IMG/VR virus record: IMGVR_UViG_3300032240_002652
Coordinates: 1 to 35,843 of that record
Strand: one strand, 5' to 3'
Source: a virus
Length of the DNA stretch: 35,843 nucleotides
Below, piece after piece: positions 13,620 through 35,843 of this stretch; position 1 is the stretch's first letter, and each line of letters begins with the position of its first letter. A model generated the notes under the pieces. It was given only the letters and a program-made list of their open reading frames with translations. It was not told the DNA's origin and did not search any database. The position numbers were made by a program, and so were the translations under genes.

Positions 13620-14090
13620 ATGGCAGATGGTATTACTTATGGTCTTAATTTTCCATTTAGAGATTCTAGAAAGGGAGATTACCTACAATTAACGGAGTTA
13701 GAATCCCAAGAAATTAAAGCGGATTTAATTCATTTGTTGTTGACAAGAAAAGGTACAAGATATTATTTACCCGATTTTGGAACAAGATTATATGAATTTT
13801 TATTCGAACCTTTTGATGGTTTAACATTCAACGCTATTGAATCTGATATTAGAGATGCGGTAGCAATGTTTATGCCAAACTTATTGTTAAATAATATAAC
13901 AATTACACCAGCTGACCCTCAACAAGAAGTTGATATAGCAACAGGTCAGAATTTAATCGGAACTAGTGAATCTTCAATATATAGATTCCCTGGTAAAGGT
14001 ACTTCAGAATACACTGCAAAAATTAAAATAGACTACTCTACAAACAAAAGTACTTATTCACAGAGTGATTTTGTTATTATCAATATTTAA
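13620..14090 (+). CDS. 25: Baseplate wedge protein gp25
   Basis: 156 residues; T4 gp25 is 132. The GPW/gp25 family signature is visible in the middle: a helix LIHLLLTRKGTRYYLPDFGT followed by RLYEFLFEPFD, then an amphipathic helix (FNAIESDIRDAVAMFMP) and beta strands. In contractile tails this small protein links the sheath to the baseplate wedge and helps nucleate sheath assembly. The next gene (gp6-like) starts five bases after the stop, a gp25-gp6 pairing that is conserved in many contractile injection systems. About 20 extra residues near the C-terminus (ATGQNLIGTSESS) form a low-complexity loop. Confidence 0.9.
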   Translation: MADGITYGLNFPFRDSRKGDYLQLTELESQEIKADLIHLLLTRKGTRYYLPDFGTRLYEFLFEPFDGLTFNAIESDIRDAVAMFMPNLLLNNITITPADPQQEVDIATGQNLIGTSESSIYRFPGKGTSEYTAKIKIDYSTNKSTYSQSDFVIINI

Positions 14091-14095
14091 TATAA

Positions 14096-15934
14096 ATGGC
14101 AAATCGTACAATATCATATACTACCAGAGATTATCAGGGGATAAGAACCGAGTTACTTAACTATGTTAGAACATATTATCCTGAGTTAATTCAAGATTTT
14201 AATGATGCATCAGTCTTCTCTGTGTTCTTAGATTTGAATGCCGCGGTTGCAGACAACCTTCATTATCATATTGATAGAAGTATCCAAGAAACTGTGTTAC
14301 AATACGCACAGCAAAGGTCTTCAATATATAACATAGCCCGAACTTATGGATTAAAACTTCCTGGTCAAAGACCGTCAGTTTCGCTTGTCGACTTTTCAAT
14401 CACAGTTCCAGCGTTTGGTGATAAAGAAGACGAAAGATATTTGGGTGTATTAACAAGAGGTTCACAAGTTAGTGGTGCAGGTATTGTTTTTGAAAACATT
14501 TATGATATTGATTTTGCATCACCATATAATGCTCAAGGATTTCCAAACAGGTTAAAAATACCTAATTTCAATGCAAACAATGTATTAATTAATTATACAA
14601 TTACTAAAAGAGAAATTGTTGTTAATGGTATTACTAAAGTATTCAAAAGAGTGATTACTCCAAATGATGTTAAACCGTTCTTTGAATTGTTCTTACCTGA
14701 AAAGAACGTATTAGGTATTACAAGTGTCTTATTAAAGAGTGGAACTGAATATACTAACATCCCATCAACATCAGAATTTTTAGGTATTTCAAATAAATGG
14801 TATGAAGTTGATGCTTTAGCTGAGGATAGAGTATTTGTTGAAGACCCTACAAAAGTTTCAGACCAGCCAGGTATTAAAGTCGGTAGATACATCCAAACTC
14901 AAAATAGATTTATTACCGAGTATACACCAGAAGGATTTAAAAAGATGACATTTGGTGGGGGAACCAATACAGCACAAGACCAATTAGACCAATTTACAAC
15001 TGTGGGCGCAACATTAGACCTACAAAGATATTCAAATAACTTCTCATTAGGTTCAGCACTAACTCCAAACTCAACATTGTTTGTTCAATATAGAGTTGGT
15101 GGTGGATTAGCGACAAACTTAGGAACTAACGTTATTAATCAAATTGGAACTGTATCATTTTACGTAAATGGTCCTTCTGAATTAACTAACTCATCAGTAG
15201 TAAATTCATTAAGATGTAATAACGTAACCGCAGCAATCGGTGGGGCGGGAATACCATCACTTGAAGAAATTAGAAACTATGTTTCTTTCAACTTCTCAGC
15301 ACAAAAAAGAGCCGTTACTGTTCAGGATTATGAATCAATAATTAGAAACATGCCTTCAGAGTTTGGTGCACCTGCAAAGGTTTCAATCACTGAAAATAAT
15401 AACAAAATATTGATTCAACTTTTATCTTACGATACGTCAGGTAAACTAACAAGTATTGTGTCTGATACGTTAAGACAAAATGTTGCCACATATTTGTCTA
15501 ACTACAGAATGATGAACGATTATATTTCTATATTAACGGCTCAGGTAATTGACTTAAGCTTTGATATTCAAATCGTTTTAGATTCCGCACAAAACTCAGG
15601 ACAAGTTATATCTGACGTTGTAGATAAGATTTCAACATACATGAATCCACAAACAAGACAACTTGGACAAAATGTAAATTTATCTGAAATTAGAAGTATC
15701 GTTCAAAATCAAAATGGGGTATTGACCGTTGCTGGATTAAAAGTATATAATAACGTTGGGGGTCAATACTCATCTGCAGAAACATCTATGGAATATGCTG
15801 ACCCTGAAACTAAAGAAATCGCTCCTGTTGACAATACAATTTTTGCTCAACCATCACAAGTGTATCAAATTAGGTACCCAAATAAAGATATTAAAGTTTC
15901 AGTCAAAAACTTCCAATCTGTTACATTCTCCTAA
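14096..15934 (+). CDS. 6: Baseplate wedge protein gp6 (baseplate J-like)
   Basis: 612 residues; T4 gp6 is 660. The N-terminus (ISYTTRDYQGIRTELLNYV) and helix HYHIDRSIQETVLQYAQQRSS match the start of gp6/baseplate-J proteins. The C-terminal part (AVTVQDYESIIRNMPSEFGAPAK, then a ferredoxin-like domain with ISILTAQVIDLSFDIQIVLD) also fits that family. It forms the inner wedge ring around the hub and expands on tail contraction. The gene is coupled to gp25 (five-base gap). The 96 bases after its stop hold only an imperfect hairpin and the next promoter-like element. Confidence 0.88.
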   Translation: MANRTISYTTRDYQGIRTELLNYVRTYYPELIQDFNDASVFSVFLDLNAAVADNLHYHIDRSIQETVLQYAQQRSSIYNIARTYGLKLPGQRPSVSLVDFSITVPAFGDKEDERYLGVLTRGSQVSGAGIVFENIYDIDFASPYNAQGFPNRLKIPNFNANNVLINYTITKREIVVNGITKVFKRVITPNDVKPFFELFLPEKNVLGITSVLLKSGTEYTNIPSTSEFLGISNKWYEVDALAEDRVFVEDPTKVSDQPGIKVGRYIQTQNRFITEYTPEGFKKMTFGGGTNTAQDQLDQFTTVGATLDLQRYSNNFSLGSALTPNSTLFVQYRVGGGLATNLGTNVINQIGTVSFYVNGPSELTNSSVVNSLRCNNVTAAIGGAGIPSLEEIRNYVSFNFSAQKRAVTVQDYESIIRNMPSEFGAPAKVSITENNNKILIQLLSYDTSGKLTSIVSDTLRQNVATYLSNYRMMNDYISILTAQVIDLSFDIQIVLDSAQNSGQVISDVVDKISTYMNPQTRQLGQNVNLSEIRSIVQNQNGVLTVAGLKVYNNVGGQYSSAETSMEYADPETKEIAPVDNTIFAQPSQVYQIRYPNKDIKVSVKNFQSVTFS

Positions 15935-16030: not shown

Positions 16031-19000
16031 ATGGGTCAATCATATAGAATAAGAACTGAGCTTGGGATTAATAAAACAATCAATTTAGAATTAGACCAAG
16101 ATTTTGAGTTCTTAGAGATATTGTCATTAAAAATTCAACAGACAGATATATTCACAAGAAATTGTGCTGACTATGGTGTGGCTGTTGGTAGAGTGACCGC
16201 AAACAATGGATTTGGATTACCTAACGCAAGAGTTTCTATCTTTATACCTGTTGAAGCTGTAGACCAATCGAACCCAATTATTTCAAGTATATATCCATAT
16301 AAATCAACAACTGATAAAAATAGTGATGGATATAGATACAACTTATTACCTTACGAAAAATCATATTCAACTCACGCAGCAACAGGTACATTACCATCAA
16401 GAACTGATGCTTTAACAGGAAGTACTGCTGTTGAGATATACGACAAATATTACAAATTTACCACTAAAACTAATGAAAGTGGTGATTATATGATTATGGG
16501 AATTCCATTGGGTGCTCAAACCGTGGTTATGGATGTTGACCTCTCAGACATTGGTGAGTTTTCTTTAACACCAAATGACTTAATTAGAATGGGTAGAGCG
16601 TCTGAAGGTCAAGTGGCGGGTAATAGATTCAAAACATCAACAGACCTTAATTCTTTACCTCAAATAGTCTCTTTAGTTAAACAAGTTGAAGTAACTCCAT
16701 TGTGGGGAGACCCTGAAACTTGCCAAATTGCGGTTTGTAGATTAGACTTTGATTTAAGAGATGATGCAAATATTGATATTCAGCCAACTTCAGTTTTTAT
16801 GGGGTCGATGTACTCAACCTCAGACACATATCGATTAAGGTCAGAAAGTTTATTTGGAGTTGATTTTCCTCCAAAACCAAGAGATAATATGGGTAACCTT
16901 TGTAATTTAATTGCAGGACCTGGACAAATTTTGGCAATACGACAAACAATACAGCAAGACTCTAATGGAAATCCAATATTGGAACAACATCAGTTAGAAC
17001 AGGGAGGTAATATTATAGATGGTAATGGTACATGGTTGACAGAATTACCGATGAATTTAGACTATGTTATAACAAATGAGTTTGGTGAAAAAATATTATC
17101 AAATGACCCTGCAGTTGGTATACCAACAAAAGGGAAATATAGGTTCAAAATTAAATGGTCCCAACCAAATTCTTTGACTGAACAAGTTAGAAGACCATAT
17201 TATTTGGTTCCAAATATAAAAGAATATGGGTGGGTAACATCTTCTTCCGACCCAAGTAACTCAAATGCTGATTCACAATCTAAAACAAGGCAACGTTCCT
17301 CTTATTATTTTGGTTTAGACTGGTCAGGGTATACACAAGGATTTACAGATAAAACTGTTGTAAGTAATTTATTAAATGAAAAAATTGATTGTCAAGATAC
17401 ATTTTATCAATTTGATTTTAACAGAGTATATACAGTGGCAGGACTAATTGACGAGTTTAAAAATGGTGTCAAAGGTAGATTTATAGGTATTAAAGAAATT
17501 GATAGTGAGGATTGTGCAAGTACGATTAATAAATTTCCTGTAAATGATGGGTTTAGAAATTTTGATTTATTGTATTTTATATTTGCGATTCTTATGCAAG
17601 TTATACAATTAGTCGGATTACCATTATTAATTGTATATCATTTTATTGCGTTTTTATGGAATAACTTTGCGGTAGTTATTCTTGCGTATTTTATTTTACA
17701 ATTTGCGGCTAACGCCGCTTTTGAATTTTCATTAGCAATTGCCGCAGCGTCAGGTGCGGGAGCTTTTTCTTGGGGATTGTTATTATTAATTGCACCGTTT
17801 GTTGGTAAGGGTCTTTTGTGGTCAGCAATTGCATTATTTTTAGCTCTCAAATTTAAAGATATTGTTTCATACAAATTTGGTAGAATAAAACTACCAATGA
17901 TACAATACCCCGATTGTCAAGCATGCGAATGCGTTCCTGAAACTACACAACAAGGTGGAGAAGACGCAACTGAGATGCCACCAGCTCCAGGGTTTTTAAG
18001 TCAACTTTCTAACCCTAATTTTTATATTGAAAATATAACAACTAATCAATCGACTTTACCATGTGAATATGGTACAAATAATGTTGGATGGAACCTCCAT
18101 TATCCTGCAAATTGTGTTGTTAATGAAGGAGATAGTGCCGAAGATTATAATACAGTAATTGCGGTTAGTAAATCTGACGCAGTCGCGGGATATGCGTCAA
18201 AAAGTAATAATCCTAAATTGTTTAAACTGAATCAAAGTACTGCAATTAGTGAACCAAATGGTATGAGAATTTTTACAGTTGGATATTCATTACCACCAGG
18301 AGAAAGAATCAATATCTACAACACAAGAAAAAAATATTTTGATGGAGAAAATAAAATAAAAGTTACTTTCAATTTACCTGGAAATATATCAACATCTCAT
18401 TATGATAATACTTTAACAATATTATCGCCTTTTGATGTAAATGCTGGTGATTTATTAACGTTTGTTTCACCAACAAAATCCAAAGATGTTAATTATCGTT
18501 GGACAGGACAAACAAGTATTGGAGGAAACGTAATTAATGGGATTGTTGGTAAATCAAATCTACACGGAGGCCCAATTAACGTCAATTATGCTACCACACA
18601 AACAGGGCCCGCATCAACGGTTGTTTATAATTTACCCATTGTTCAGTCTGATTGTGTGGATAGTGTTACAATTGACGTTGTAAGTGCGGGCACAATAACA
18701 TATTCAAATTGTTATAATGATTTAGTTGATGGAGGTACACTTACCCAAGGTACTAAAACAATTACAAATACTAGTGGCATTACCATTAGCACTTTAGGAG
18801 GTACTGCAGTTTATAATATAACGGCAAGTGGTGATTCAGTTCAAAGATACATTTATCCTTCAGATATAGAATATTATCAAGTATTAACTGCAATTACAAT
18901 TACAACAAAACTTGTAAATGGGCAAGTTGTTTACACCAATCCTAATTTTGATGGAACAACTGGATTTTGGGGAGCATTGAACGCGCCAAACGTAATTCAA

Positions 19001-21358
19001 CCATGGAACGAAATTGAGGGGGAAGGATGGTGGCCAATAATTCCAAAACAATCAATATCAACAAGTACGTTTACAGAGTTTAGTACTCAAAAAGTTGTAA
19101 TTTTACAAAGAGGTGTTGACCCATACTCACCACAATATATAAACAAATATGGTATTGGTAAAATATTAGGATATACTAATGAAGATGATGTGGTTATTAC
19201 TGCAAGTACAAGGTTAAATATACCCATACAACCAATATCAAGTGGAGGTGCTTCTGTACAAAATCACGGAAATCAAAATAATATTTTTTACTCAAATTAT
19301 TTATACACACCAGGAACCAACGGAGGAACCTATGCTGATGGTACGGCATGGAATCAATTCTCAACAGACAACGTTGGGTATTATGGGGCGTTGGATTCAA
19401 CAATTAATACAAATTTAAAAATAAATTTTAATTTTGATAATACAACTGGAGTTGCATCACAACCAGCAGGTATTAACTCATATGGGAGTGGTAATAGATA
19501 TTATGGCATATTTAGTAGTAATTCTAACGATAATTACAGTTTGTCTGAAGATTTATCTGGAGCTGGTGTTATGGTGGGGGATTATACAACTTATACATTT
19601 TATGTAGGACCTGGAAGTGGAAGAGGAAAAGGAAGATGGCAAATTAATGGACAATGGATGTATTATAAATACAACGGAGCTCCTGCCCAACAATACTATA
19701 GTCCAAATTTATATCCAAAATATACAGGAACAAGCCAAGTTCAAATAACAAATAGTTCAAAATTAGTTATGAGAACAGATAGATTACCTTCTTCGGATTA
19801 TACTGATAATAAAAATGGGTGGACTGATAATGTGAGTTTATTACAACAAAATTTAGGATTTGCGGTTTATTCAATATCATCGGCAGGAGGTGTTTTTACA
19901 AGTGCTGGATTTAGTACGGGGGCTGGTCAAGTTAGTCCAAATATTGGAGGGCAAGTGGCGTCATTAAATGTCATAGAAACTTTGAATACTTGTTCCAAAA
20001 TGGTGGGATTAAATTGTTATAGTGGTAATAGTGTTGATTTTGGCGTCAAATTAGGTTGTCAGGCTAGTGATGTTGTAGAGAATGGATGCTACATAATGAT
20101 GAATAAACCATTGAAAGATTTGACTAAAGATTTAAAAACATTTGCGGAATGGGGATTTAGATTTAGATTTTTTTATGGATTATGTAGGGGAGTTCTTTCA
20201 CAATCTTTTGTTAACAATTGGGTAAATGGTTCTTTATATGCATTTCCAATTCAAGTTGATACATACTATGATAGTAAAAATAAACCAATGGAGCCAGAAT
20301 ATCCAAAAGCGGTTGTCTATTTTGATAATAAAAGTAATAATTTTTATTATAGAAGTTCACCCTATTTGATAAATTCAGGTAATTTCTGTGGAAGACCAAC
20401 AACAAGTGATACATTACCTGTAAACAAAAGAAATTTATTGTATCCAACAACAGTTATTAATTTAGGTATTAAAGACGACTTTTATAAAGAAATTATTTTT
20501 GATGCTTCTGTTAAAGGTTATATAATGAAAACTCTTAATTCAACGAGTTATTCTGATACATCTGATTTAGTAAATCTATTTGTTATTTCAAGAATAACTG
20601 ACGAAGGATTCTTGCAACAAATTTTATCTTTAAATAGTAATAATAATTTAGACCAATTATTTTCGAGACCTGAAAAAAGAATTGACGGAGATTTAGCTCA
20701 AATGATGTCAATAAATTCTGAATATGGAGTAATTCCGTTCTCACCTCAGTTTTATAAATCAGATGGTAGAGGAAGTTCACCTGTAAAAATTTACGGTGAT
20801 TTGGCAATCAACCCTACTTTGGCAATTTATTATTCTTCAACAACAGTTGATTTACAAAATAAAGATTTTTTATCTCCAGGAGTAATTGATTTTAGACCAC
20901 AAAATAATAGAAATGCTATAACTTATCCTTATGGTATTAAATCGCAAAGAGTCCCATTTTATCAGTGGGAAATAAAAGATAATCCTTTAAGTGGAGTGTT
21001 TGGTACTGAAAAAAATAGTTGGAAGACCACATATTCTTCAGATGTCAATACAACTGGAATTTTTTCAAACAACTACCAATCTTTAGATAGAAGAAATGTG
21101 AATACACCAACTTACATGATTAATAGTGGTAACGCAAATGTATCTGACACCTTAGCTAGAGGTTACATCTTTAACGTGAAATTAGACCCTGCAAACGTTG
21201 GTTTAACTTTAGATAATTTAAATTATTCATACACACCGACTGGTGGAACATATTCATCTCATTTTTTAGTTGGAGCACCAAATCATTTTTACTTTGGAAT
21301 TATTAAAGGAGAAAGTGCTTTGGATAAATTTAAACAAAAATATTCTGTAGATGAATAA
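16031..21358 (+). CDS. 1775-aa baseplate-locus structural protein with internal membrane-like block
   Basis: The giant protein occupies the place that gp7 has in T4 (downstream of gp25-gp6), but I see no similarity to gp7. The N-terminal region (about 50-175) contains a carboxypeptidase-regulatory-like beta fold pattern (VGRVTANNGFGLPNARVSIF ... TNESGDYMIMGIPLGA). Residues 511-606 are strongly hydrophobic, with room for three or four membrane helices (FDLLYFIFAILMQVIQLVG, FAVVILAYFILQFAANAAF, WGLLLLIAPFVGKGLLWSAI). A Cys cluster follows (C629, C632, C634). The remaining 1,100 residues are Asn/Gly/Ser/Tyr-rich and beta-like. There is no signal peptide. Likely a virion baseplate protein; the hydrophobic block might be buried in the particle or inserted into the host envelope. 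Start chosen at the first ATG, after the promoter-like element. The next gene overlaps the end by eight bases. Confidence 0.7.
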   Translation: MGQSYRIRTELGINKTINLELDQDFEFLEILSLKIQQTDIFTRNCADYGVAVGRVTANNGFGLPNARVSIFIPVEAVDQSNPIISSIYPYKSTTDKNSDGYRYNLLPYEKSYSTHAATGTLPSRTDALTGSTAVEIYDKYYKFTTKTNESGDYMIMGIPLGAQTVVMDVDLSDIGEFSLTPNDLIRMGRASEGQVAGNRFKTSTDLNSLPQIVSLVKQVEVTPLWGDPETCQIAVCRLDFDLRDDANIDIQPTSVFMGSMYSTSDTYRLRSESLFGVDFPPKPRDNMGNLCNLIAGPGQILAIRQTIQQDSNGNPILEQHQLEQGGNIIDGNGTWLTELPMNLDYVITNEFGEKILSNDPAVGIPTKGKYRFKIKWSQPNSLTEQVRRPYYLVPNIKEYGWVTSSSDPSNSNADSQSKTRQRSSYYFGLDWSGYTQGFTDKTVVSNLLNEKIDCQDTFYQFDFNRVYTVAGLIDEFKNGVKGRFIGIKEIDSEDCASTINKFPVNDGFRNFDLLYFIFAILMQVIQLVGLPLLIVYHFIAFLWNNFAVVILAYFILQFAANAAFEFSLAIAAASGAGAFSWGLLLLIAPFVGKGLLWSAIALFLALKFKDIVSYKFGRIKLPMIQYPDCQACECVPETTQQGGEDATEMPPAPGFLSQLSNPNFYIENITTNQSTLPCEYGTNNVGWNLHYPANCVVNEGDSAEDYNTVIAVSKSDAVAGYASKSNNPKLFKLNQSTAISEPNGMRIFTVGYSLPPGERINIYNTRKKYFDGENKIKVTFNLPGNISTSHYDNTLTILSPFDVNAGDLLTFVSPTKSKDVNYRWTGQTSIGGNVINGIVGKSNLHGGPINVNYATTQTGPASTVVYNLPIVQSDCVDSVTIDVVSAGTITYSNCYNDLVDGGTLTQGTKTITNTSGITISTLGGTAVYNITASGDSVQRYIYPSDIEYYQVLTAITITTKLVNGQVVYTNPNFDGTTGFWGALNAPNVIQPWNEIEGEGWWPIIPKQSISTSTFTEFSTQKVVILQRGVDPYSPQYINKYGIGKILGYTNEDDVVITASTRLNIPIQPISSGGASVQNHGNQNNIFYSNYLYTPGTNGGTYADGTAWNQFSTDNVGYYGALDSTINTNLKINFNFDNTTGVASQPAGINSYGSGNRYYGIFSSNSNDNYSLSEDLSGAGVMVGDYTTYTFYVGPGSGRGKGRWQINGQWMYYKYNGAPAQQYYSPNLYPKYTGTSQVQITNSSKLVMRTDRLPSSDYTDNKNGWTDNVSLLQQNLGFAVYSISSAGGVFTSAGFSTGAGQVSPNIGGQVASLNVIETLNTCSKMVGLNCYSGNSVDFGVKLGCQASDVVENGCYIMMNKPLKDLTKDLKTFAEWGFRFRFFYGLCRGVLSQSFVNNWVNGSLYAFPIQVDTYYDSKNKPMEPEYPKAVVYFDNKSNNFYYRSSPYLINSGNFCGRPTTSDTLPVNKRNLLYPTTVINLGIKDDFYKEIIFDASVKGYIMKTLNSTSYSDTSDLVNLFVISRITDEGFLQQILSLNSNNNLDQLFSRPEKRIDGDLAQMMSINSEYGVIPFSPQFYKSDGRGSSPVKIYGDLAINPTLAIYYSSTTVDLQNKDFLSPGVIDFRPQNNRNAITYPYGIKSQRVPFYQWEIKDNPLSGVFGTEKNSWKTTYSSDVNTTGIFSNNYQSLDRRNVNTPTYMINSGNANVSDTLARGYIFNVKLDPANVGLTLDNLNYSYTPTGGTYSSHFLVGAPNHFYFGIIKGESALDKFKQKYSVDE

Positions 21359-24990: not shown

Positions 24991-25899
24991 ATGGCAATAG
25001 GTTCATATGGTACAATAAGACCGAGTGATGTTTCACCAGCAGATGTTGAAATAATCATGAATTACACACCCACAAGAGATGCGACAGACCAATTCGTACT
25101 AACAACTTTGGATGCGCAAACAATTTTGAGACCATACTTTAATAATACAGAAACAGGAGGAAACGCTGGAGTTGAAGTTTTAGGTGGATTATACAATTTA
25201 ACATTGCCAGCAAATCAATTCAACGCTCTTGGAATTTACACCTTATATATAAGACCTGCTCAAATCAGAACAAGTATTACCGATTGTGGTGTATTGAGTG
25301 CATTACCAAACGTAAAAGGAATTGTAATTGACATTACAAACGTGCCAACACAATATCAAAATAATTTTGTTGCTCAAGGATTAGTTGGATTCAGAATTGA
25401 ATACTTAAATCCCGACGGTTCAAAAATACCAAATTTCTTTAGAGTGGTTACTTCAAGTTTCTTCTGTGAACCAGTGGTTACAAATGAGGTTAATACAACA
25501 CAAAAATCTATAAGATATAGGTATGTAGACGGAGATTCAAATTTGTTATTCCTAACACTTTCACCATCATCATCACCAACAAACAAACCAAATGCGACTC
25601 CATTTATTGGACAACCTAACCAAAATATTATAATAACAAATACATTTTTTAATCCTGTTACTGTAGAAGTTGAAATGGTTGAATATGACATTTCATCTCT
25701 TGCAATTGCCCTTTACGGTAATCAAACTAAATCTATTGATGACGGTATTTACACAATCTATGACTCTGCAAACAATATCTACAGACAATACAACTTGTAT
25801 GAGATTAGAGACCAATTTAATGCATTGTTATACGAGGTTAGACAAAGCAGAGGTAATAATATTGATTTCAGTAAAAACTTTACAAATATAACTAGCTAA
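24991..25899 (+). CDS. Unassigned 302-aa structural protein
   Basis: Not recognised. It follows a promoter-like element and ends overlapping the next ATG by one base, so it is the first gene of the last baseplate sub-operon. Composition is Asn/Thr/Ile-rich and beta-like; the middle (about residues 75-165) has an Ig-like rhythm (GIYTLYIRPAQIRTSITDCG, GIVIDITNVP, GFRIEYLNPDGSKIPNFF). The C-terminus turns helical and charged (YNLYEIRDQFNALLYEVRQS). Two Cys are visible. No membrane segment or signal peptide. Position immediately before the tail-I-like gene suggests a wedge or fibre-connector protein, for example in the role of T4 gp8 or gp9, but no sequence match supports a name. Confidence 0.65.
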   Translation: MAIGSYGTIRPSDVSPADVEIIMNYTPTRDATDQFVLTTLDAQTILRPYFNNTETGGNAGVEVLGGLYNLTLPANQFNALGIYTLYIRPAQIRTSITDCGVLSALPNVKGIVIDITNVPTQYQNNFVAQGLVGFRIEYLNPDGSKIPNFFRVVTSSFFCEPVVTNEVNTTQKSIRYRYVDGDSNLLFLTLSPSSSPTNKPNATPFIGQPNQNIIITNTFFNPVTVEVEMVEYDISSLAIALYGNQTKSIDDGIYTIYDSANNIYRQYNLYEIRDQFNALLYEVRQSRGNNIDFSKNFTNITS

Positions 25900-28886
25900 T
25901 GGCGGTAACAATAAACACAACAAAATATTTTTATCCACCAAGACCTGGTAGTGGTGCGGCAACATTCTCGGACAATATTGTAGGATTACAAACTGTTCAA
26001 GGTGGTGGACTTACGCAAGGTAATTTTGAATTTACAACAAGTGTAACAGAAAAGGTTAATAGAAAATTTAATGTTGGAGCGTTTTCTGAACCTGTTAACT
26101 TAAGTGATTTAGATATTGATGACTTGACTCAAAGTAGAAGAATCATGGCGACACAATTCAGAGTTTATCCAAACTATGATGTGTCACAAGTTTTGAATTT
26201 TTCTATGTATGGTTCATTAGCAAAAAGATTTCAAGTTTCTGTAACTCAAATTATTAACTATTTTCCCGCTTCTTTAGATGTTCAATTTCAAAATTTAGAA
26301 TTTGTAACAGCCGCGACAGCAACAAATATTCAATACGATTCACTTTCTGATGAAACTTATTTTGAAGTAGATGTTGATAGAATTAATAATCCTTTTAATA
26401 TTGATTATTCAGTTAGTGCCGCAACCAATCTTAATCTCAGAGAAATAACAGTTTCACCATATAGAAATTTATATAACACTTATTTGGATTATTGTATTAG
26501 TATCAATGATAATATCTATAAAGTTGTATCTTTTAAACCATCCGATAATTTAAGTTCAGGTTACATTGCTTTTTATGTATCAGGGGCACCTTTTGGAACA
26601 ACTGCTACTACGGTGTATAATGATTATCAAATAAGACCAAATGATTTTGTTGTTGATAGAGTGTTTGCTGAAACTTTTGATGAAGTCGAAAAGTTTTTGG
26701 TTAACAGATTAGTTAGACCTGAATATACGGCAATATTCCAAGTACCACAACAAAACGAGGATGGTCAATACTATACATCTTATCAACAAGTTACATGGCC
26801 AAAAGATGGGGTTTGGAATTTAGACATAAGGTCATTCTTATTTGACGATTACTTGGCAAAATTAGAAGACATTGCAGTTAATTTAGACTCATTTAAAACT
26901 AATTTAATCTCAAGATTTTTAGTCACAGATTCATTAAAAGAATTTGATACTTTAGGACAAAAAGTTGAAAAAATATTTCAAATTTATGGTAGAAGTTTTG
27001 ACCAAATCAAACAATTTATTGATGCATTAGCGTATATGAATTCAGTTAATTATAATCCTGAAAATGATATACCATCACAACTTCTTGTTAATTTAGCCCA
27101 AACATTAGGATGGACTTCAAATTTTTCACCAATTACAAATGAAGATTTTTTAGCATCTGTATTTGGTAACACCTCAACACCAACATATCCAGGTTATGCT
27201 CGTGCACTTACGCCAACTGAATTAAACTATTCGTTTTACAGGAATTTAATATTAAACGCAGCATATCTTTTCAAATCTAAAGGAACAAGAAGGTCAGTTG
27301 AGTTTATGATGAGATTAATTGGTGCACCTGAATCTTTAATTGAATTTAATGAACATATATATCTTGCAGACCAAAGAATTAATTTAGACCAATTCTATAC
27401 ACAATGGGCAGCAATATCTGGAGGGACATATGTTCAGAGTAGTCCTTCATATTTACCTGGTAGTACTTACAAAATAAAAGGAAAAATATATACAGGATAT
27501 ACTTCAACAAATACCTATCAAGATGTTTCAATTAGATTGGTTGATTACCCTATGGATAAAGAAGGATTTCCTAAAGCGCCACTTAACACTGAAGATTACT
27601 TTTTTCAATTAGGTTCGGGTTGGTATGAAACAACACCACAACATAGAAGTCCTGACCAAGTTGTTATTACGGGAAACGTATATACAGGACAAAACTACGA
27701 TGTTCAAACTCAACTGCAACCATTTACATATGGACAACCATATCTAAATAGATTTAGAGATTTTCCATATATGACTGAAGGATTCAAACTTCAGAAAGTT
27801 GTGGACAATAATAAATCTTGGTTAGAAGAAGATAATAAAATAAGAGTATCGGTTAATGCTGATTACAATGCATATTATTATGTTGATAATGAAAAACTTG
27901 TATTAAACGTTAAGAATGTGGATTTATTCTTGAACCCATCCCAAGGACTTGTGTATGACGTTTGGAATCAATCGAGAACTTATGATTATCCATTCCCTGA
28001 ATCGGGGCTTACAGTTGGGTACCCTGTGCCAGGGGGAGTTGATTGGACTTATGTTGACCCTAAGCCAAAGAAAAAAACATTCTTTGAATTTTCTCAAACG
28101 TTTTGGGAAAATATGATTAATGTTAGAAATAGACAATACATAACGGATGGTAAGACTGGTGGTTACCCAACATTACAATCTATTTGGTGGAAATACATTG
28201 AATCAGAACAAACAGTTGGATTACCAAATAACAAGTATACTTACCAAAAGTTAATTGACTATGTTAATGGTATTGGTCCTTATTGGATGAAACTGGTTGA
28301 ACAAATGGTGCCTGCAACTACTATTTGGAATACAGGGGTCAAATTAGAAAATTCAATTTTACATAAACAAAAGTTTGTTTATAGAAGACAAAGAGGATGT
28401 CAATTCATACCAGTACCTGTTGACCCATGTTATATTATTTCAAACATTTTTGATTATACCTGTACAACTGATTATACTGACTTTAACATTTACCCATGGT
28501 TGAACGGAGATACTAATGTAAGTAATTTCAATAGTATTTTGGCAAATAGAATTAATAATATGTTAGCGTCAAGTGGTTTAACATTAAATGATTGTGTTCA
28601 AAATTCAGTTCAAACTTCTTGGTATGTTGACTTAAGAATAGGAGGTGACGTATTAATATCAGAACCATTCTATTATGGTTATGGATATACTGATGTACCC
28701 ACAAACAGACAATGGAGAAACGCCTTAATTCAATATCTACCTGAGTTATATGATTATGGGTATACTTATTTCTTGAACGGTAATGTTCTTACCATAACAA
28801 GTTTAACTTGTACTGAAAGAAATAAAGGAGAAACACTTTCATTAAATACAGGAATAAACATTAGTATAAATTGTAACAATCAATAA
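25899..28886 (+). CDS. 995-aa baseplate protein with tail-protein-I-like region
   Basis: The central region resembles the phage P2 gpI / wedge family: a helical VEKIFQIYGRSFDQIKQFID, a QLLVNLAQTLGW segment, and at about residues 446-486 YRNLILNAAYLFKSKGTRRS followed by VEFMMRLIGAPESLIEF. The 'YR..L...YL.KSKGT..S.E....L.G' pattern is characteristic of that group. Further on, a WWKYIESEQTVG ... YWMKLVEQMVPATTIWNTG segment and a Cys-containing RRQRGCQF resemble the C-terminal parts of such proteins. T4 gp7 is 1,032 residues, so a gp7-like role is possible by size and position. The last 120 residues form a small Cys-containing domain. Both ends overlap neighbours by one base. Confidence 0.65.
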   Translation: MAVTINTTKYFYPPRPGSGAATFSDNIVGLQTVQGGGLTQGNFEFTTSVTEKVNRKFNVGAFSEPVNLSDLDIDDLTQSRRIMATQFRVYPNYDVSQVLNFSMYGSLAKRFQVSVTQIINYFPASLDVQFQNLEFVTAATATNIQYDSLSDETYFEVDVDRINNPFNIDYSVSAATNLNLREITVSPYRNLYNTYLDYCISINDNIYKVVSFKPSDNLSSGYIAFYVSGAPFGTTATTVYNDYQIRPNDFVVDRVFAETFDEVEKFLVNRLVRPEYTAIFQVPQQNEDGQYYTSYQQVTWPKDGVWNLDIRSFLFDDYLAKLEDIAVNLDSFKTNLISRFLVTDSLKEFDTLGQKVEKIFQIYGRSFDQIKQFIDALAYMNSVNYNPENDIPSQLLVNLAQTLGWTSNFSPITNEDFLASVFGNTSTPTYPGYARALTPTELNYSFYRNLILNAAYLFKSKGTRRSVEFMMRLIGAPESLIEFNEHIYLADQRINLDQFYTQWAAISGGTYVQSSPSYLPGSTYKIKGKIYTGYTSTNTYQDVSIRLVDYPMDKEGFPKAPLNTEDYFFQLGSGWYETTPQHRSPDQVVITGNVYTGQNYDVQTQLQPFTYGQPYLNRFRDFPYMTEGFKLQKVVDNNKSWLEEDNKIRVSVNADYNAYYYVDNEKLVLNVKNVDLFLNPSQGLVYDVWNQSRTYDYPFPESGLTVGYPVPGGVDWTYVDPKPKKKTFFEFSQTFWENMINVRNRQYITDGKTGGYPTLQSIWWKYIESEQTVGLPNNKYTYQKLIDYVNGIGPYWMKLVEQMVPATTIWNTGVKLENSILHKQKFVYRRQRGCQFIPVPVDPCYIISNIFDYTCTTDYTDFNIYPWLNGDTNVSNFNSILANRINNMLASSGLTLNDCVQNSVQTSWYVDLRIGGDVLISEPFYYGYGYTDVPTNRQWRNALIQYLPELYDYGYTYFLNGNVLTITSLTCTERNKGETLSLNTGINISINCNNQ

Positions 28887-31018
28887 TGTCATTTAATTAT
28901 TTTTTATCAGTAACAGGAGATTGTCAAAGTACTAATACAGGTATTGCAACATTGTATTTGTCAGGAGGGGTAACGCCTTACACCGTTGAATGGATTTCGC
29001 CATCATTACCAACCGATATAAATGTTTTTAGTTCAATTACTAAAACAAATTTATCAACTGGTGTTTATAATGTAAGGGTAAATGATAGTACGCTACCCGT
29101 CAATCAAAATTTATACATTAATATACCAATATCTAGCGGAGTTTGTGCAAGTATTCTTGGTGTTCAAGATACAACATGTGCATTAAACAATGGCTCTGTA
29201 ACAGGTTCATCGAGTTCGGTGTATTCGTCAAACAGTTATTTTTTATATCATTCTGATGGTACATTTTCACAGTCGGCAACAACAAGTCAAGCAAACGTGG
29301 TTTTTGGCAACTTAACTGCAGGGACCTACTATATGACTGTTTTAGATTTGGGCGGTTGTACAGGGCAAAGCCAAAGTTTTATTATTGATGAATCAACACC
29401 ATTAAGTTTCGGTTTGTATAGTGTTCCAAATACATCTTGTGGAGGAATACCAATGGGTAAAATAACCGTGACAGGTATTACGGGTCATGCACCATATCAA
29501 TACTTGTGGAGTAATGCTCAAACTGGGTCAACTATTACGGGGTTAACTTCAGGGCAATATTCTGTACAAGTTACTGACGCATATGGATGTGTGTTAACTC
29601 AAACAGCAACAGTTGACAGTCTACAACCTTTAGGTTTTGGTACTTTTTCAGTTACACAACCAACTTGTTTTTCAAGTGATGGGGTAGTTACATTAACTGT
29701 AACAGGAGGAACTGCTCCGTTTTATTATTCTGCTTCAACAGGAAACGTTTTAATATCGTACAACACTTCATATACTCTTTCAGGATTATCTTCAGGTAAT
29801 ATTAATTTTCAAGTAACCGATGCGGCGTTTTGTAAATTTGTTGCAGGAACTACTTTAGTTACACCACAAGGAATTAGTTCAGTTAATATAAATTCATTAA
29901 ATTCAACTTGTTCAAGTAATAATGGACAAATCACCGTTACAGTCAATGGAGGTTCAATACCTTTTGTTTATACATTAATTTATCCTAATGGTGATACTTT
30001 GAATATCAGTAGTAATCAAACAACACAGTTATTTTCAAATTTAACTTCAGGTACTTATGGTGTTGCTGTTCAAGATAGTACAGGATGTTCATATTTTCAA
30101 GAAGTAACAATAATAGCGGAAAACAAATTTACAATTTCAACAAACGCAGTTTCAACTTCATGTAATCAACGTAATGGTCAAATTCAAATTACAACAACTA
30201 CAGGATACACTTTACCATTAGATTATTCTGTTGATGGATTGTATAATATAATTGACACAAATTTAACGGCAACTACTTTTAATAATATTTCAGGAGGAAC
30301 TCACGTAGTTACTGTCACAGATGCTGACGGATGTACTCAAACAGCAAATGTTTATGTACCATATAGCCAACCGTTAGATTTTTCTTTATATAGTACATCT
30401 TGTGGGGACGGTGGTAGTGGTACAATAACGGCATTTATTACATCAGGTAATCCTCCATTTAATTTTAATTGGTCTGACAATGTTCCAAATGAACCACAAC
30501 AAATACAAGTTTCAGGTTTAACCGCTGGAACATATAGTTTAACGGTTGTTGATAGTAATTCATGTTCTTTAACTAGAACAACATCAATTAATTGTAACAC
30601 AAATTATGTATCGTATCAAACATATGTAATGGGTGCTGAAGTGTTTAATATCAAATCACCAACTAAGTATGGATTGTTACAAATGTTGAACGAAGGATTT
30701 TATGATTTAACTACAGGTAACACAAGTTGTGATTTAATTAATGCGACGTTTACTGCAAAAGTTTCGGTTAGTCCTTTAGGTTTAAGTACTAGCCAAACAT
30801 TCTTTACATCAACATCATTAGTAAGTGCTCCAACAGACAATCAATACTATAATACGGTCAAAGATTTGTTATTGAGTATACCAGGTGTTGGTAATGTAAC
30901 GATTGACCAATTAAATAACCAAATAACTATTGAAACAAGTCGAAGTAATACCTCATTACAAGGACAAGAAATTATTATCGATTTAGTTATAGTTTATGAT
31001 ATAATGTGCTTAAAATGA
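28886..31018 (+). CDS. SprB-repeat tail/adhesin-like protein
   Basis: 710 residues with seven tandem beta modules of 65-85 residues. Each contains a GG-x-PY/PF-type strand, a 'NLTAGTYxVTVTD' type strand and usually a closing D-x-x-G-C. Closing motifs: VNDSTLP (near 65, no Cys), VLDLGGC (158), VTDAYGC (235), VTDAAFC (316), VQDSTGC (401), VTDADGC (483), VVDSNSC (560). A second Cys opens most modules (TTC, TSC, PTC, STC, TSC). This is the pattern of the SprB repeat, known from the flavobacterial gliding adhesin SprB and other Bacteroidota surface proteins. Residues 571-710 form a different C-terminal domain. No secretion signal or type IX sorting domain is seen, as expected for a phage protein. 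It sits at the end of the baseplate operon, so a distal tail or receptor-contacting protein is likely. Confidence 0.75.
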   Translation: MSFNYFLSVTGDCQSTNTGIATLYLSGGVTPYTVEWISPSLPTDINVFSSITKTNLSTGVYNVRVNDSTLPVNQNLYINIPISSGVCASILGVQDTTCALNNGSVTGSSSSVYSSNSYFLYHSDGTFSQSATTSQANVVFGNLTAGTYYMTVLDLGGCTGQSQSFIIDESTPLSFGLYSVPNTSCGGIPMGKITVTGITGHAPYQYLWSNAQTGSTITGLTSGQYSVQVTDAYGCVLTQTATVDSLQPLGFGTFSVTQPTCFSSDGVVTLTVTGGTAPFYYSASTGNVLISYNTSYTLSGLSSGNINFQVTDAAFCKFVAGTTLVTPQGISSVNINSLNSTCSSNNGQITVTVNGGSIPFVYTLIYPNGDTLNISSNQTTQLFSNLTSGTYGVAVQDSTGCSYFQEVTIIAENKFTISTNAVSTSCNQRNGQIQITTTTGYTLPLDYSVDGLYNIIDTNLTATTFNNISGGTHVVTVTDADGCTQTANVYVPYSQPLDFSLYSTSCGDGGSGTITAFITSGNPPFNFNWSDNVPNEPQQIQVSGLTAGTYSLTVVDSNSCSLTRTTSINCNTNYVSYQTYVMGAEVFNIKSPTKYGLLQMLNEGFYDLTTGNTSCDLINATFTAKVSVSPLGLSTSQTFFTSTSLVSAPTDNQYYNTVKDLLLSIPGVGNVTIDQLNNQITIETSRSNTSLQGQEIIIDLVIVYDIMCLK

Positions 31019-31374
31019 CACAGGTAAGAATTACAGACATATCTGGGGGTACATATCCCATTAGTGTTTACATATCAGATGTTTATGGAAATAACCAAAC
31101 ATTACTTGGAACAATAAGTTCTGGGCCTGTGCCGCCTACGGTTCAATACAATACCACAATACCCTCTATATTCAACACCGCTCCTCAGATATTATTGACA
31201 TTGGTGGATGCCAACAACTGTTCAATATTCAAACTTTTAGATTGTACATTTGGTTGCACATTTCAAATTACTATCGAAATGGCTTCTTGTATTGTTAATA
31301 TGGATATTCAAGAGGCTAACTGTAATTTTTCAATTTATTCGACAGACCCATCTTGTAGTTTTAGTATAATTTAA
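31015..31374 (+). CDS. Small Cys-rich 119-aa protein
   Basis: I start this gene at the ATG at 31015, whose ATGA overlaps the stop of the SprB-repeat gene; a GTG nine bases upstream is also in frame. The N-terminal half is one beta module (ISGGTYPISVYISDVYGN ... LLTLVDANNC) whose end resembles the closing motif of a SprB repeat. The C-terminal half is a regular alternation of short strands and Cys: about eight Cys in the last 45 residues (DCTFGCTF, EMASCIV, QEANCNFSIY, DPSCSFSII). No membrane segment. It is tightly coupled to the SprB-repeat gene and may be its partner, chaperone or a capping piece. Family not recognised. Confidence 0.6.
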   Translation: MTQVRITDISGGTYPISVYISDVYGNNQTLLGTISSGPVPPTVQYNTTIPSIFNTAPQILLTLVDANNCSIFKLLDCTFGCTFQITIEMASCIVNMDIQEANCNFSIYSTDPSCSFSII

Positions 31375-31458: not shown

Positions 31459-33717
31459 ATGTCTACATATTCTATTCTCGTAACAAATAATGCGCCTGGT
31501 TGTAGTACTGAAATCGAACAACAACTCACGGTAACTGGGTGTACTTCATACATTGTAAGACTTGCGTCTAATTCTAATGCCTTAGGCCCGTTTAATGTTT
31601 TTGTAGACAATTCAATTTATTATTCTAGTGTAACAAGAAACGACATGTTCAATGGAGTTGTTGTTAATTTAGCTTGTGTAACTCCTTCACCAACTGCAAC
31701 ACCAACACAAACTCCGTCACCAACACCAAAAGTTTACAACCCAATCATTGTTAATGGTTATTATTTCTCAGGTTCGATTGGTGCGGGTTATTCTGCAAAT
31801 GCGACTTACACAGTTGATACTAATGTATCTGTCAATTTTAATGCAATTTTACAAACAACAACAGGAAGCCCAATTACGCAAAACGTAACAGTTGTTATTC
31901 CATCAGGACAAATTTCAGGATTTACTCAAACATTTATTAATGGATTATATGTTGATTTGAATCAAACTGCTAGTTTAACTGCATTCACTACGACTGTTTC
32001 TGGTGGAACGGGATATGATTATTCCGCAAACACAGGTACAACAGTATTTGATGTTACACCAACACCAACACCATCAATTACACCATCACCAACAGCAACA
32101 CAAACTTCTACACCAACAAATACACAAACGCCAACAAATAGTCCAACAGGAACTCCTGGGGCGACACCAACAGCAACACAAACTTCTACACCAACAAATA
32201 CTCAAACAAACACAGAAACTCCAACAAACACTCCTACAGTAACTCCAACTAATACTGAAACTCCAACACCTACAGCGAGTGAAACTCCGACACAGACTCC
32301 AAGTGAGACTCCTACAAACACACCTACAGTAACTCCGACTAACACGGAAACACCTACATCAACTGCAACTGAGACTCCAACACAGACTCCAAGTGAAACT
32401 CCTACAAATACTCCTACAGTAACTCCAACTAATACAGAAACTCCAACCAATACACCAAGTGAGACTCCTACAAATACACCAAGTGAGACTCCTACAAATA
32501 CGCCTACAGTAACTCCAACCAATACAGAAACTCCAACACAGACTCCAAGTGAGACTCCTACAAACACGCCTACAGAAACTCCAACACAGACTCCGACTAA
32601 TACCGCAACTAACACAGAAACTCCAACTCCAACTCCAACTAATACTGCTACCAATACAGAAACTCCAACACCAACTCCAAGTGTCACGCCAACTAATACT
32701 CCAAGTGTAACTCAAACTTCAACTGCGACATTAACACCAACTGCAACTCAAACTGCAACAACAACCGCAACAGTTACACCAACAATGACCCAAACACCTT
32801 CACCAACTGAAACAGCGACACCAACGGCAACATTAACTCCAACAGCAACTGAAACTGCAACATTAACACCGACACCAACAACAACCGCAACTTTAACACC
32901 AACAGCTACAACAACCGCAACTTTAACACCAACAGCTACAACAACAGCTACTCCAACACCGACAGCAACTGAAACGGCAACATTAACACCAACACCAACT
33001 GAAACTGCAACTGCAACACCAACCGCTACAACAACTGCAACAGTTACACCGACAATGACACAGACACCAACTGTAACTCAAACACCAACTAATACCGCAA
33101 GTCCAACTCAGACAGCAACTCCAACAATGACACAAACACCGTCATCAACAGGAGCGGCATTATTGGCGTATGTGACAATTGAACCACAAGGACAAACTGC
33201 TAACTTTAATGGATGGATGGCATCTCAAGGTTCAGCATGGCGTGGATTCTTTATTAATGGAGCGACTACCGCAAACTCTGTAACATTTAACCAACAATTT
33301 AATGCATACTTGAACTACTCAGGATGGGGTGGAAACTCACCAGCTATTATCACAGGTACAATCTCTCCAACATCAGGTGGAAACGATGCATATGGTAATC
33401 CAATTCAAGCTTACTTGTTCCAAACAACACAAGTTCCTGCAGGTACTACACCATCAAACGCTTGGTATACTTGGTACATTTCAACAGGAGCGACAAACGG
33501 TCAAATTATGACTCAAGTTGGTACAAATACAGCAGGAAATCCAAATTCATTAACAGCAAGAAACATGAACTCTGGATATTATAATAATATAGTAAACTAT
33601 ACAGGTAACACAATTCCAAAAGGAATATACCGTGTTTATACCACATATGGTTCTACAGAATTTAGAATAAATGCCTCAGTAAATAATATTTACTTTAAAG
33701 GAAACACCTTAATATAA
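31459..33717 (+). CDS. Thr/Pro-rich mucin-like repeat protein, 752 aa
   Basis: Visible parts: an N-terminal module (1-74) with Cys residues and a SprB-like rhythm ([14 protein letters not shown]); a short Pro/Thr stretch (75-91); a beta domain (about 92-198); a Pro/Thr-rich low-complexity region of 365 residues (200-564) built from TPTxT units with Thr, Pro, Glu, Ser, Asn, Gln and Ala; and a C-terminal domain (565-752) rich in Gly, Asn, Trp and Tyr. The Thr/Pro region has essentially no Lys or Arg and should be an extended stalk, like mucin or cellulosomal linkers. The C-terminal domain may be the receptor-binding or capsule-contacting tip. DNA repeats inside favour slippage. No signal peptide or anchor. 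Reverse-strand open frames across the repeats are artefacts. Confidence 0.75.
32056..33150 (+). repeat. Degenerate Thr/Pro-coding tandem repeat tract
   Basis: About 1.1 kb of short repeats coding TPTxT units. The unit is degenerate at the DNA level, with locally exact copies such as the 30-base pair at 32881-32940. The first half is dominated by ETPTNTPT and SETPTQTP phrases, the second by ATxTATLTPT phrases, so at least two expansion histories are visible. Confidence 0.9.
32881..32940 (+). repeat. Exact 30-base tandem duplication
   Basis: Bases 32881-32910 and 32911-32940 are identical; a diverged third copy follows. The unit keeps the reading frame (10 codons) and codes [10 protein letters not shown]. 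Confidence 0.95.
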
Positions 33718-33741: not shown

Positions 33742-35843
33742 ATGAGCTTTAACTATCAAAATCCACTTGCAGGAACAATTTACGAAGGACCAATCGGGGT
33801 TGCTCTTGACAACAGTACGGGAACAAATTTTAGTGTATTCTCCATCGGAGGATACATGGAAGTTTATTCACACCAAGACTTAATATATACAATACCTCCA
33901 GGAACAGAAGGAAGTGTATTGTATTCAGGAAATACAATTCCAATTGCATTTAATTATAATGTACCATTCTCATCACCTAATGTTTTAACACTTTATAGTG
34001 ATGAAATTTCTTCAGGAAGAAGAAGATTAGGTATGATGGTGTATGTTATATCTGCTGATACAACGTATCAATATGTGATTGACGATTATCCAACATTATG
34101 GAACGCAGCACAAATTTCAGGGGCATTAGGTTTCGATGGTACAGTTTGGACCTGTGAAAGTAGTACTGCTGCAGGTGAGGCATTTATTAATGCTTGGACA
34201 GGGTCAACTATTGAAGGTATTAGTGGAGCGACTCATGAAACTGCAAGATGGAAGATTGCAAATATGAATGATACTGTTATTACAGGTGGTACATATTATT
34301 CTGCAACAACATCTTTGGCTTTATATAACAATTATGGTGGAACTGTTACAATAACAGGATTTACAGGTACAGTAACGGGAGGAACTTATGATAGTGGTTC
34401 TTCAACGTTAACTCTTAATAATAGTGACGGTAGTAGTGTATCTATTACAGGAATTACTTCAGGCTCTGGTTCGGCTTTACAAGTTAGTGATGGCACAACA
34501 ACAGTTTTTCCTGTTTCAGGAATTACTTTCAATGGTGCGTCAGTAACTGATGATTTAAACGGAAATATTACAGTAACAATAACAGGTGGAACATCTGGTA
34601 CAGATGGAACAAGTGGTACATCAGGTACATCAGGATTAAGTGGCGTAAATGGAACCGATGGTTCTTCAGGAACAAGTGGTACATCAGGTACATCAGGTAC
34701 AGATGGAACAAGTGGTACCGATGGTACTTCAGGAACAGACGGAACAAGTGGTACAGATGGTACTTCAGGAACTGATGGTACAAGTGGTTCTTCAGGAACT
34801 AGCGGAACATCGGGAACAGATGGTACAAGTGGTTCTTCAGGAACTAGCGGAACATCGGGAACAGATGGTACAAGTGGAACAGATGGAACTTCAGGTACCG
34901 ATGGTACAAGTGGAACGGATGGTACTTCAGGTACCGATGGTACAAGTGGAACGGATGGTACTTCAGGTTCGTCAGGAACTTCAGGAACAAGTGGTTCTAC
35001 AGGAACTAGTGGTACTTCAGGTACAGATGGAACATCAGGAACTGATGGTACAAGTGGTACAGACGGAACATCAGGAACTGATGGTACAAGTGGTACAGAC
35101 GGAACAAGTGGAACAGACGGTTCTTCAGGAACAAGTGGTGTTTCAGGAAACTCTGGAACAAATGGAACTTCAGGTTCTTCAGGTACCTCAGGTTCTTCAG
35201 GAACATCAGGAACAAGTGGTACTGACGGTACTTCAGGTACATCAGGCTCAACAGGAACAAGTGGTACTTCAGGTTCGACAGGAACAAGTGGAACAAGTGG
35301 TACATCAGGAATAAGTGGCGTTAATGGAACTAGTGGTACAAGTGGTTCTACAGGAACTTCAGGTACATCAGGTTCAACAGGAACAAGTGGAACATCAGGT
35401 TCTTCAGGAACATCAGGTTCTACAGGTACATCAGGTACAAGCGGTTCAGCAGGAACATCAGGTACAAGTGGTTCAGCAGGAACATCAGGTACAAGTGGTA
35501 CAGACGGAACAAGCGGAACAGATGGTACATCAGGTTCAACAGGAACTAGCGGTACAAGTGGTTCTTCTGGAACATCAGGTTCAAGTGGAACAACAGGAAC
35601 AAGTGGTACTTCAGGAACAGACGGAACTAGCGGTTCATCAGGAACTTCAGGTTCAAGTGGTACAACAGGTACATCAGGAACAAGTGGTACAGATGGTACT
35701 TCAGGTTCAAGCGGAACTAGCGGTTCATCAGGTACAACAGGAACAAGTGGTTCATCAGGAACAAGCGGCACTTCGGGTTCTACAGGAACAAGTGGAACTT
35801 CAGGTTCAGATGGAACTTCAGGTTCAGATGGAACTTCAGGGTC
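33742..35843 (+). CDS. Collagen-like Gly-X-Y structural protein (3' partial)
   Basis: The frame is open from the ATG at 33742 to the window end, 700 complete codons, so the 3' end is missing. Residues 1-282 form a globular or beta-rich N-terminus (for example GFDGTVWTCESSTAAGEAF), probably the particle attachment part. From G283 onward Gly stands at every third position without a break for 139 triplets. Triplets are mainly GTS, GTD, GSS, GST, with a few GVN, GLS, GIS, GSA, GNS. No Pro, Lys or Arg occurs in the array. Collagen-like arrays are common in phage tail fibres and bacterial surface filaments, where they form trimeric rods. It starts 24 bases after the mucin-like gene, behind an A/G-rich leader. 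The distal, likely receptor-facing end lies outside the window. Confidence 0.8.
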   Translation, partial: MSFNYQNPLAGTIYEGPIGVALDNSTGTNFSVFSIGGYMEVYSHQDLIYTIPPGTEGSVLYSGNTIPIAFNYNVPFSSPNVLTLYSDEISSGRRRLGMMVYVISADTTYQYVIDDYPTLWNAAQISGALGFDGTVWTCESSTAAGEAFINAWTGSTIEGISGATHETARWKIANMNDTVITGGTYYSATTSLALYNNYGGTVTITGFTGTVTGGTYDSGSSTLTLNNSDGSSVSITGITSGSGSALQVSDGTTTVFPVSGITFNGASVTDDLNGNITVTITGGTSGTDGTSGTSGTSGLSGVNGTDGSSGTSGTSGTSGTDGTSGTDGTSGTDGTSGTDGTSGTDGTSGSSGTSGTSGTDGTSGSSGTSGTSGTDGTSGTDGTSGTDGTSGTDGTSGTDGTSGTDGTSGSSGTSGTSGSTGTSGTSGTDGTSGTDGTSGTDGTSGTDGTSGTDGTSGTDGSSGTSGVSGNSGTNGTSGSSGTSGSSGTSGTSGTDGTSGTSGSTGTSGTSGSTGTSGTSGTSGISGVNGTSGTSGSTGTSGTSGSTGTSGTSGSSGTSGSTGTSGTSGSAGTSGTSGSAGTSGTSGTDGTSGTDGTSGSTGTSGTSGSSGTSGSSGTTGTSGTSGTDGTSGSSGTSGSSGTTGTSGTSGTDGTSGSSGTSGSSGTTGTSGSSGTSGTSGSTGTSGTSGSDGTSGSDGTSG
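34774..34863 (+). repeat. Exact 45-base tandem duplication
   Basis: Bases 34774-34818 and 34819-34863 are identical, a unit of 15 codons (five Gly-X-Y triplets). Confidence 0.95.
34864..34971 (+). repeat. 36-base tandem triplication
   Basis: Units at 34864-34899, 34900-34935 and 34936-34971. The second and third are identical except at the last bases; the first differs at two positions. Each unit is four Gly-X-Y triplets and keeps the frame. Confidence 0.9.

Follow-up and report, generated by a model that had tools for sequence, protein, structure and literature searches.

Organization of the tail locus

The window, by which is meant the whole 35,843-nucleotide stretch of viral DNA analysed here, contains a tail cluster that opens with gp25-like and gp6-like baseplate wedge genes (13620..15934, plus strand, with starts at 13620 and 14096) and includes the gene of a seven-module protein, g710 (28886..31018, plus strand; 710 aa, ATG start), which overlaps the stop codon of the gene upstream. 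The baseplate-operon setting that an earlier note on this DNA had assigned to the gene is upheld by these wedge genes. Directly upstream of g710 lies g995 (25899..28886, plus strand; 995 aa), a conserved tail-cluster protein, and downstream follow g122 (31006..31374, plus strand; 122 aa, GTG start), a small gene found in close relatives only, and g752 (31459..33717, plus strand; 752 aa), which encodes a PT-rich stalk ending in a variable C-terminal tip and is a probable distal fibre.

Upstream of the tail cluster, the window encodes an ssDNA-binding protein, a UvsX-like recombinase, a 5'-3' exonuclease, a DnaB-like helicase and NrdA/NrdB. No capsid gene is present in the window itself; Gp23, the T4-type capsid protein, is encoded in five of eight related contigs and, together with the gp25 and gp6 baseplate genes of the window, identifies the phage family as T4-like. 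Two long open reading frames, 16031-21358 (1775 aa) and 150-3986 (1278 aa), are without Pfam or PHROGs matches, and a third, 34386-35771 (461 aa), is without a Pfam match and corresponds in PHROGs to phrog_31248, of unknown function.

The search for homologues in phage genomes proposed in the earlier note was productive: 70 IMG/VR loci encode a g710 homologue (35-69% identity, nearly all full length), and the gene order g565-g274-g364-g302-g995-g710 is kept in 70 of 70. Among close relatives, identity falls from about 90% for g302 through about 85% for g995 to about 65% for g710, and the tip protein g752 is mosaic, the tips downstream of g710 being the most exchanged part of the locus.

The hosts of this phage family are probably Bacteroidota. 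The low GC content (33.6%) and the scarcity of Shine-Dalgarno motifs, which a crude test detected in 2 of 18 genes, are compatible with such a host, short of proof; in the upstream regions tested, no TAnnTTTG, a promoter motif typical of Bacteroidota, turned up.

Modular architecture of g710

The whole of g710 matches the Pfam SprB profile PF13573 with 75.7 bits (E 2e-21, cut-off 28 bits), as do all 26 of the 26 aligned family sequences, and no match was obtained in the 14 control genomes. The Pfam model is short (37 positions), and of the single modules one lies above the cut-off and four score 15-27 bits, two being missed by PF13573 and picked up by the phage-family profile only. With this family-derived profile, seven copies are detected in g710, and the AF2 model (mean pLDDT 83) shows seven seven-strand Ig/FnIII-like sandwiches over residues 1-569, the mutual placement of which is not readable from the model because its pTM is 0.33. 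Tandem copies of a sandwich module, one of the features by which SprB-family membership was judged, are present by both profile and model, and the seven tandem SprB-type modules described in the earlier note are borne out by the profile search and the structure prediction that it had named as checks.

The sequence hallmarks claimed for every module hold for most of them. Four of seven modules close with an exact D-x-x-G-C (protein positions 154, 231, 397 and 479; shuffled g710 gives a mean of 0.07 and a maximum of 2 in 5000 trials), the relaxed form D-x-x-x-C occurs in six, and module 1 has neither; the GG..PY-type strand is present in six modules and absent from module 2. All seven lie on the plus strand. 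Module 1 (residues 1-83, 28886..29134) is the most divergent, varies more than the others across the family, and has hand-set, approximate boundaries. Modules 2 (residues 84-172, 29135..29401; DLGGC), 3 (residues 173-246, 29402..29623; DAYGC), 5 (residues 332-412, 29879..30121; DSTGC), 6 (residues 413-493, 30122..30364; DADGC) and 7 (residues 494-569, 30365..30592; DSNSC) are seen in the AF2 model and with the family profile, and module 4 (residues 247-331, 29624..29878; DAAFC) gives the top single PF13573 match, at 35.7 bits. Modules 2-6 each contain one cysteine pair, 50-59 residues apart and invariant or nearly so across the family (protein positions 98/158, 185/235, 261/316, 342/401 and 426/483), and these pairs are possible disulfides.

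Both the number and the order of the modules are fixed. Exactly seven were found with the family profile in the g710 of the window and in 16 of the 16 relatives tested, and in 140 of the 147 cases compared across two distant phage groups, a module lies nearest to its positional counterpart.

The C-terminal domain and its relation to g995

The description of g710 in the earlier note as a protein built of repeats applies to residues 1-569; residues 570-710, overlooked there, form a separate conserved part. It consists of a flexible linker (residues 570-594, 30593..30667, plus strand; pLDDT below 50 at 572-594) and an alpha-b-b-alpha-b-b-b domain (residues 595-710, 30668..31015, plus strand) with the motif QMLNEGFYDLT, of which QMLNEG is the longest invariant stretch of the whole g710 family.

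A related domain lies within the C-terminal part of g995 (residues 840-995, 28416..28883, plus strand). Comparison of the two by hhalign gives E 3.8e-6 at a probability of 87%, hmmsearch gives E 5e-5 in the window and 1.3e-7 in a relative, and the order of helices and strands is identical in two separate AF2 models, that of g995 being usable only in this domain and in parts of the N-terminal third. The similarity was missed by BLASTP (E 0.22) and detected by profiles, so that the link is to be read as a profile result from shallow alignments. In structure comparisons, the g995 domain resembles tail sheath proteins and T7-type nozzle proteins (the latter at Z 4.4-5.7, rmsd 3.8-5.6), but these matches stay below a trustworthy level and are retained as leads only.

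Behind this C-terminal domain, the g710 homologues of four relatives (L050, L051, L058 and L066) carry a fused PT-rich segment followed by a further domain that differs among them; the window has a separate gene, g752, for PT-rich segment and tip. The more distant group also encodes a second tail-cluster protein with one or two SprB-type modules (L050:11839-13266, with counterparts in L052, L056, L058, L061, L066 and L068); this protein has about 450-480 residues and is encoded at most two genes downstream of the g710 homologue.

A proposed stalk of the adhesion fibre

On balance, g710 more likely than not forms the proximal, fixed-length stalk of a baseplate-attached adhesion fibre, in a T4-like phage family probably living on Bacteroidota. 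The fused PT-rich stalks and tips of the relatives, together with conservation that falls from g302 towards the tip, lead to the assignment of g710 as proximal stalk and of its C-terminal domain as joint, and gene order, the domain common to g995 and the PT-rich fusions argue for a position at the baseplate. In the proposed arrangement, the seven Ig/FnIII-like modules would make up a fixed-length, semi-rigid rod giving reach, and the flexible linker would connect this rod to the C-terminal domain, which would act as a joint by docking beside g995 and/or carrying the PT-rich distal fibre and tip; receptor choice would reside mainly at the tip of that distal fibre. We infer that g710 is a virion component and serves there as a stalk, and the choice of its baseplate-facing end is similarly conditional.

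A whisker-like neck appendage or a Hoc-like head decoration, instead of a baseplate fibre, is an unlikely identity for g710. The family profile does match phage decoration proteins as well as 9occ, a putative neck whiskers protein (E 3.6e-4), and weak PHROGs matches lead to a Hoc-like head decoration (2.8e-7) and to a protein of the head-and-packaging category (2.7e-4); in T4, moreover, the whisker gene wac follows the baseplate genes. The whisker and Hoc-like matches, however, cover single Ig-like domains and would fit any Ig-like module, whereas the tight linkage and common domain with g995 and the fusions to PT-rich fibre and tip point to a tail fibre.

Export of g710 to the surface of the infected cell, as a host-type adhesin encoded by an accessory phage gene rather than a part of the virion, is extremely improbable, even though such proteins exist in two phage records considered below (LR756502 and L160). 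No N-terminal signal peptide was seen by eye in g710, which starts MSFNYFLSVTGDC, nor in its homologues, which start MAFNY or MASFNY. The search for a C-terminal type IX sorting domain gave no CHU_C match, and the sole Por_Secre_tail match (15.2 bits, cut-off 27) falls inside module 7; an open reading frame of LR756502, used as positive control, reached 52.6 bits with CHU_C. In all 70 loci, furthermore, the gene is preceded by a tail-cluster gene with which it overlaps.

If the stalk assignment holds, the modules, joint domain, PT-rich stalk and tip would provide a simple anatomy for spotting fibre genes in uncultivated Bacteroidota phages. At the level of the locus, g710 represents a defined and recurrent case in which a surface-adhesin module of bacteria is now a constant component of a tail locus in phages, and it may serve to test whether Ig-like modules of host type, when built into a virion, bind or act as passive spacers.

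Origin of the modules and the question of surface binding

The bacterial relatives of the repeat part belong, by record title, to Bacteroidota in 77 of 79 loci, and therefore a source of the g710 modules in this phylum is likely on present sequence comparisons; the part of the earlier proposal by which a host-type surface module serves as a stalk in a phage tail locus is retained. The bacterial SprB-repeat proteins align to g710 residues from about 13 to 570, nearly all loci ending near 570. They include Flavobacterium johnsoniae SprB, share the same Pfam repeat, and in individual modules reach up to 55% identity with phage module 3. They differ from g710 in being secreted, g710 having no visible signal peptide or significant sorting domain; in module number, with a median of 12 and up to 62 modules in the open reading frames sampled against seven; and in the likeness of modules within one protein, which is about 39% in the sampled bacterial proteins and about 25% in the phage.

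In a tree that includes bacterial modules, the phage modules fall into position-specific groups and form no single phage clade, although the roughly 75 residues on which the tree rests leave its deep branching unresolved and the acquisitions neither datable nor countable. Nearest-neighbour comparisons are biased towards bacterial neighbours, bacterial modules outnumbering those of phages. Position-specific groups without a phage clade fit either descent from an already diversified array or a very old divergence. A fuller version of the former, in which the phage lineage took up a diversified Bacteroidota adhesin array and froze it at seven modules that still interact with the surface layer of the phylum, is very unlikely in our estimate; were it true, the virion would touch its host with an adhesin module of the kind that the host itself makes.

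A further question is whether the SprB-type modules themselves bind the host surface, with mobile adhesins, the polysaccharides that partner these, or other glycans as targets; g710 would then be a receptor-binding adhesin, and adsorption would be tied to cells that glide. In favour of such binding, modules of this type belong to the surface proteins of Bacteroidota, the other six modules vary less than module 1, and some flavobacterial phages need gliding proteins, with SprB and RemA proposed as receptors (PMC13288928; PMC7345892). These studies nevertheless lend the modules no gliding role, because the proposed receptor there is a host protein, and neither states that one SprB repeat binds another. 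The Ig/FnIII-like sandwich is, in addition, a common extracellular spacer; module number and order are fixed, as in a spacer, and the mosaic part of the locus is the downstream tip. A binding role of this kind is thus regarded as quite unlikely. The suggestions of the earlier note, mimicry or binding of the moving adhesin layer by the modules and a link of adsorption to gliding cells, are not supported: SprB repeats are widespread in Bacteroidota rather than specific to gliding adhesins, and their nearest solved relatives lie elsewhere. The solved structures nearest to the g710 modules are the repeats of the Aureispira grappling hook protein GhpA (PDB 9flp and others), likewise tandem sandwich repeats (profile E 6.6e-6; Foldseek E 1.7e-18; VIA Z 12.5), and structure searches score highest with Ig/FnIII chains of a generic kind. 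GhpA differs in being a 5898-residue bacterial surface protein in which the g710 C-terminal domain is unmatched.

Relation to known phage proteins

Already known are a phage protein named for the repeat and phages with other Bacteroidota-type Ig-like modules. The former, UniProt A0A6J5LD72 ('SprB repeat', uncultured Caudovirales phage, 714 aa), has the length of g710 and, by structure comparison, its architecture, with 34% identity over 734 columns (E 6.4e-61); its name is automatic, and no account of fixed modules, a terminal domain or a role was found for it. Among the uncultured Caudovirales phage entries there is also a homologue of g995 (A0A6J5L8T1, 45% identity). Host-type Ig-like, BACON and PKD modules near structural genes have been described for Hoc and for crAss-like and other Bacteroidota phages (PMC13370021); these are module families other than SprB, which that paper does not mention, and text searches of the literature brought up no publication on phage tails with SprB repeats. 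As far as could be found, what is new is the fixed seven-module architecture, its conservation throughout a family of T4-like phages, and a terminal domain that g710 has in common with the upstream protein.

Among isolated flavobacterial phages, the nearest by its gp6-like wedge protein is Flavobacterium phage vB_FspM_immuto (MW353176; 28% identity), in the tail cluster of which neither a SprB module nor a homologue of g995 or g710 was detected. Searches with profiles of the neighbouring tail genes gave no counterparts in the examined regions of immuto, Mel-JY01, LR756502 and LR756508, and tblastn of g995 against Mel-JY01 gave a weak match of 122 residues.

INPHARED contained no true g710 homologue; its sole match, in the huge phage LR756502, was rejected as a bacterial-type, T9SS-secreted SprB protein without the g710 C-terminal domain. 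This protein (L157:12523-17547, about 514363-519387 of the 642-kb record LR756502.1) has about 1670 residues and combines a signal-like N-terminus with 14 SprB-type modules and a type IX secretion signal of the CHU_C kind; either the phage genome encodes a surface protein of host type, or the assembly contains bacterial DNA. A 177-kb phage contig with a g710 homologue of 40% identity carries two adjacent open reading frames of 179 and 338 aa (L160:3120-4678), both with signal-like N-termini and the longer with a SprB repeat (32.6 bits), by which this phage may add secreted proteins to the surface of its host.
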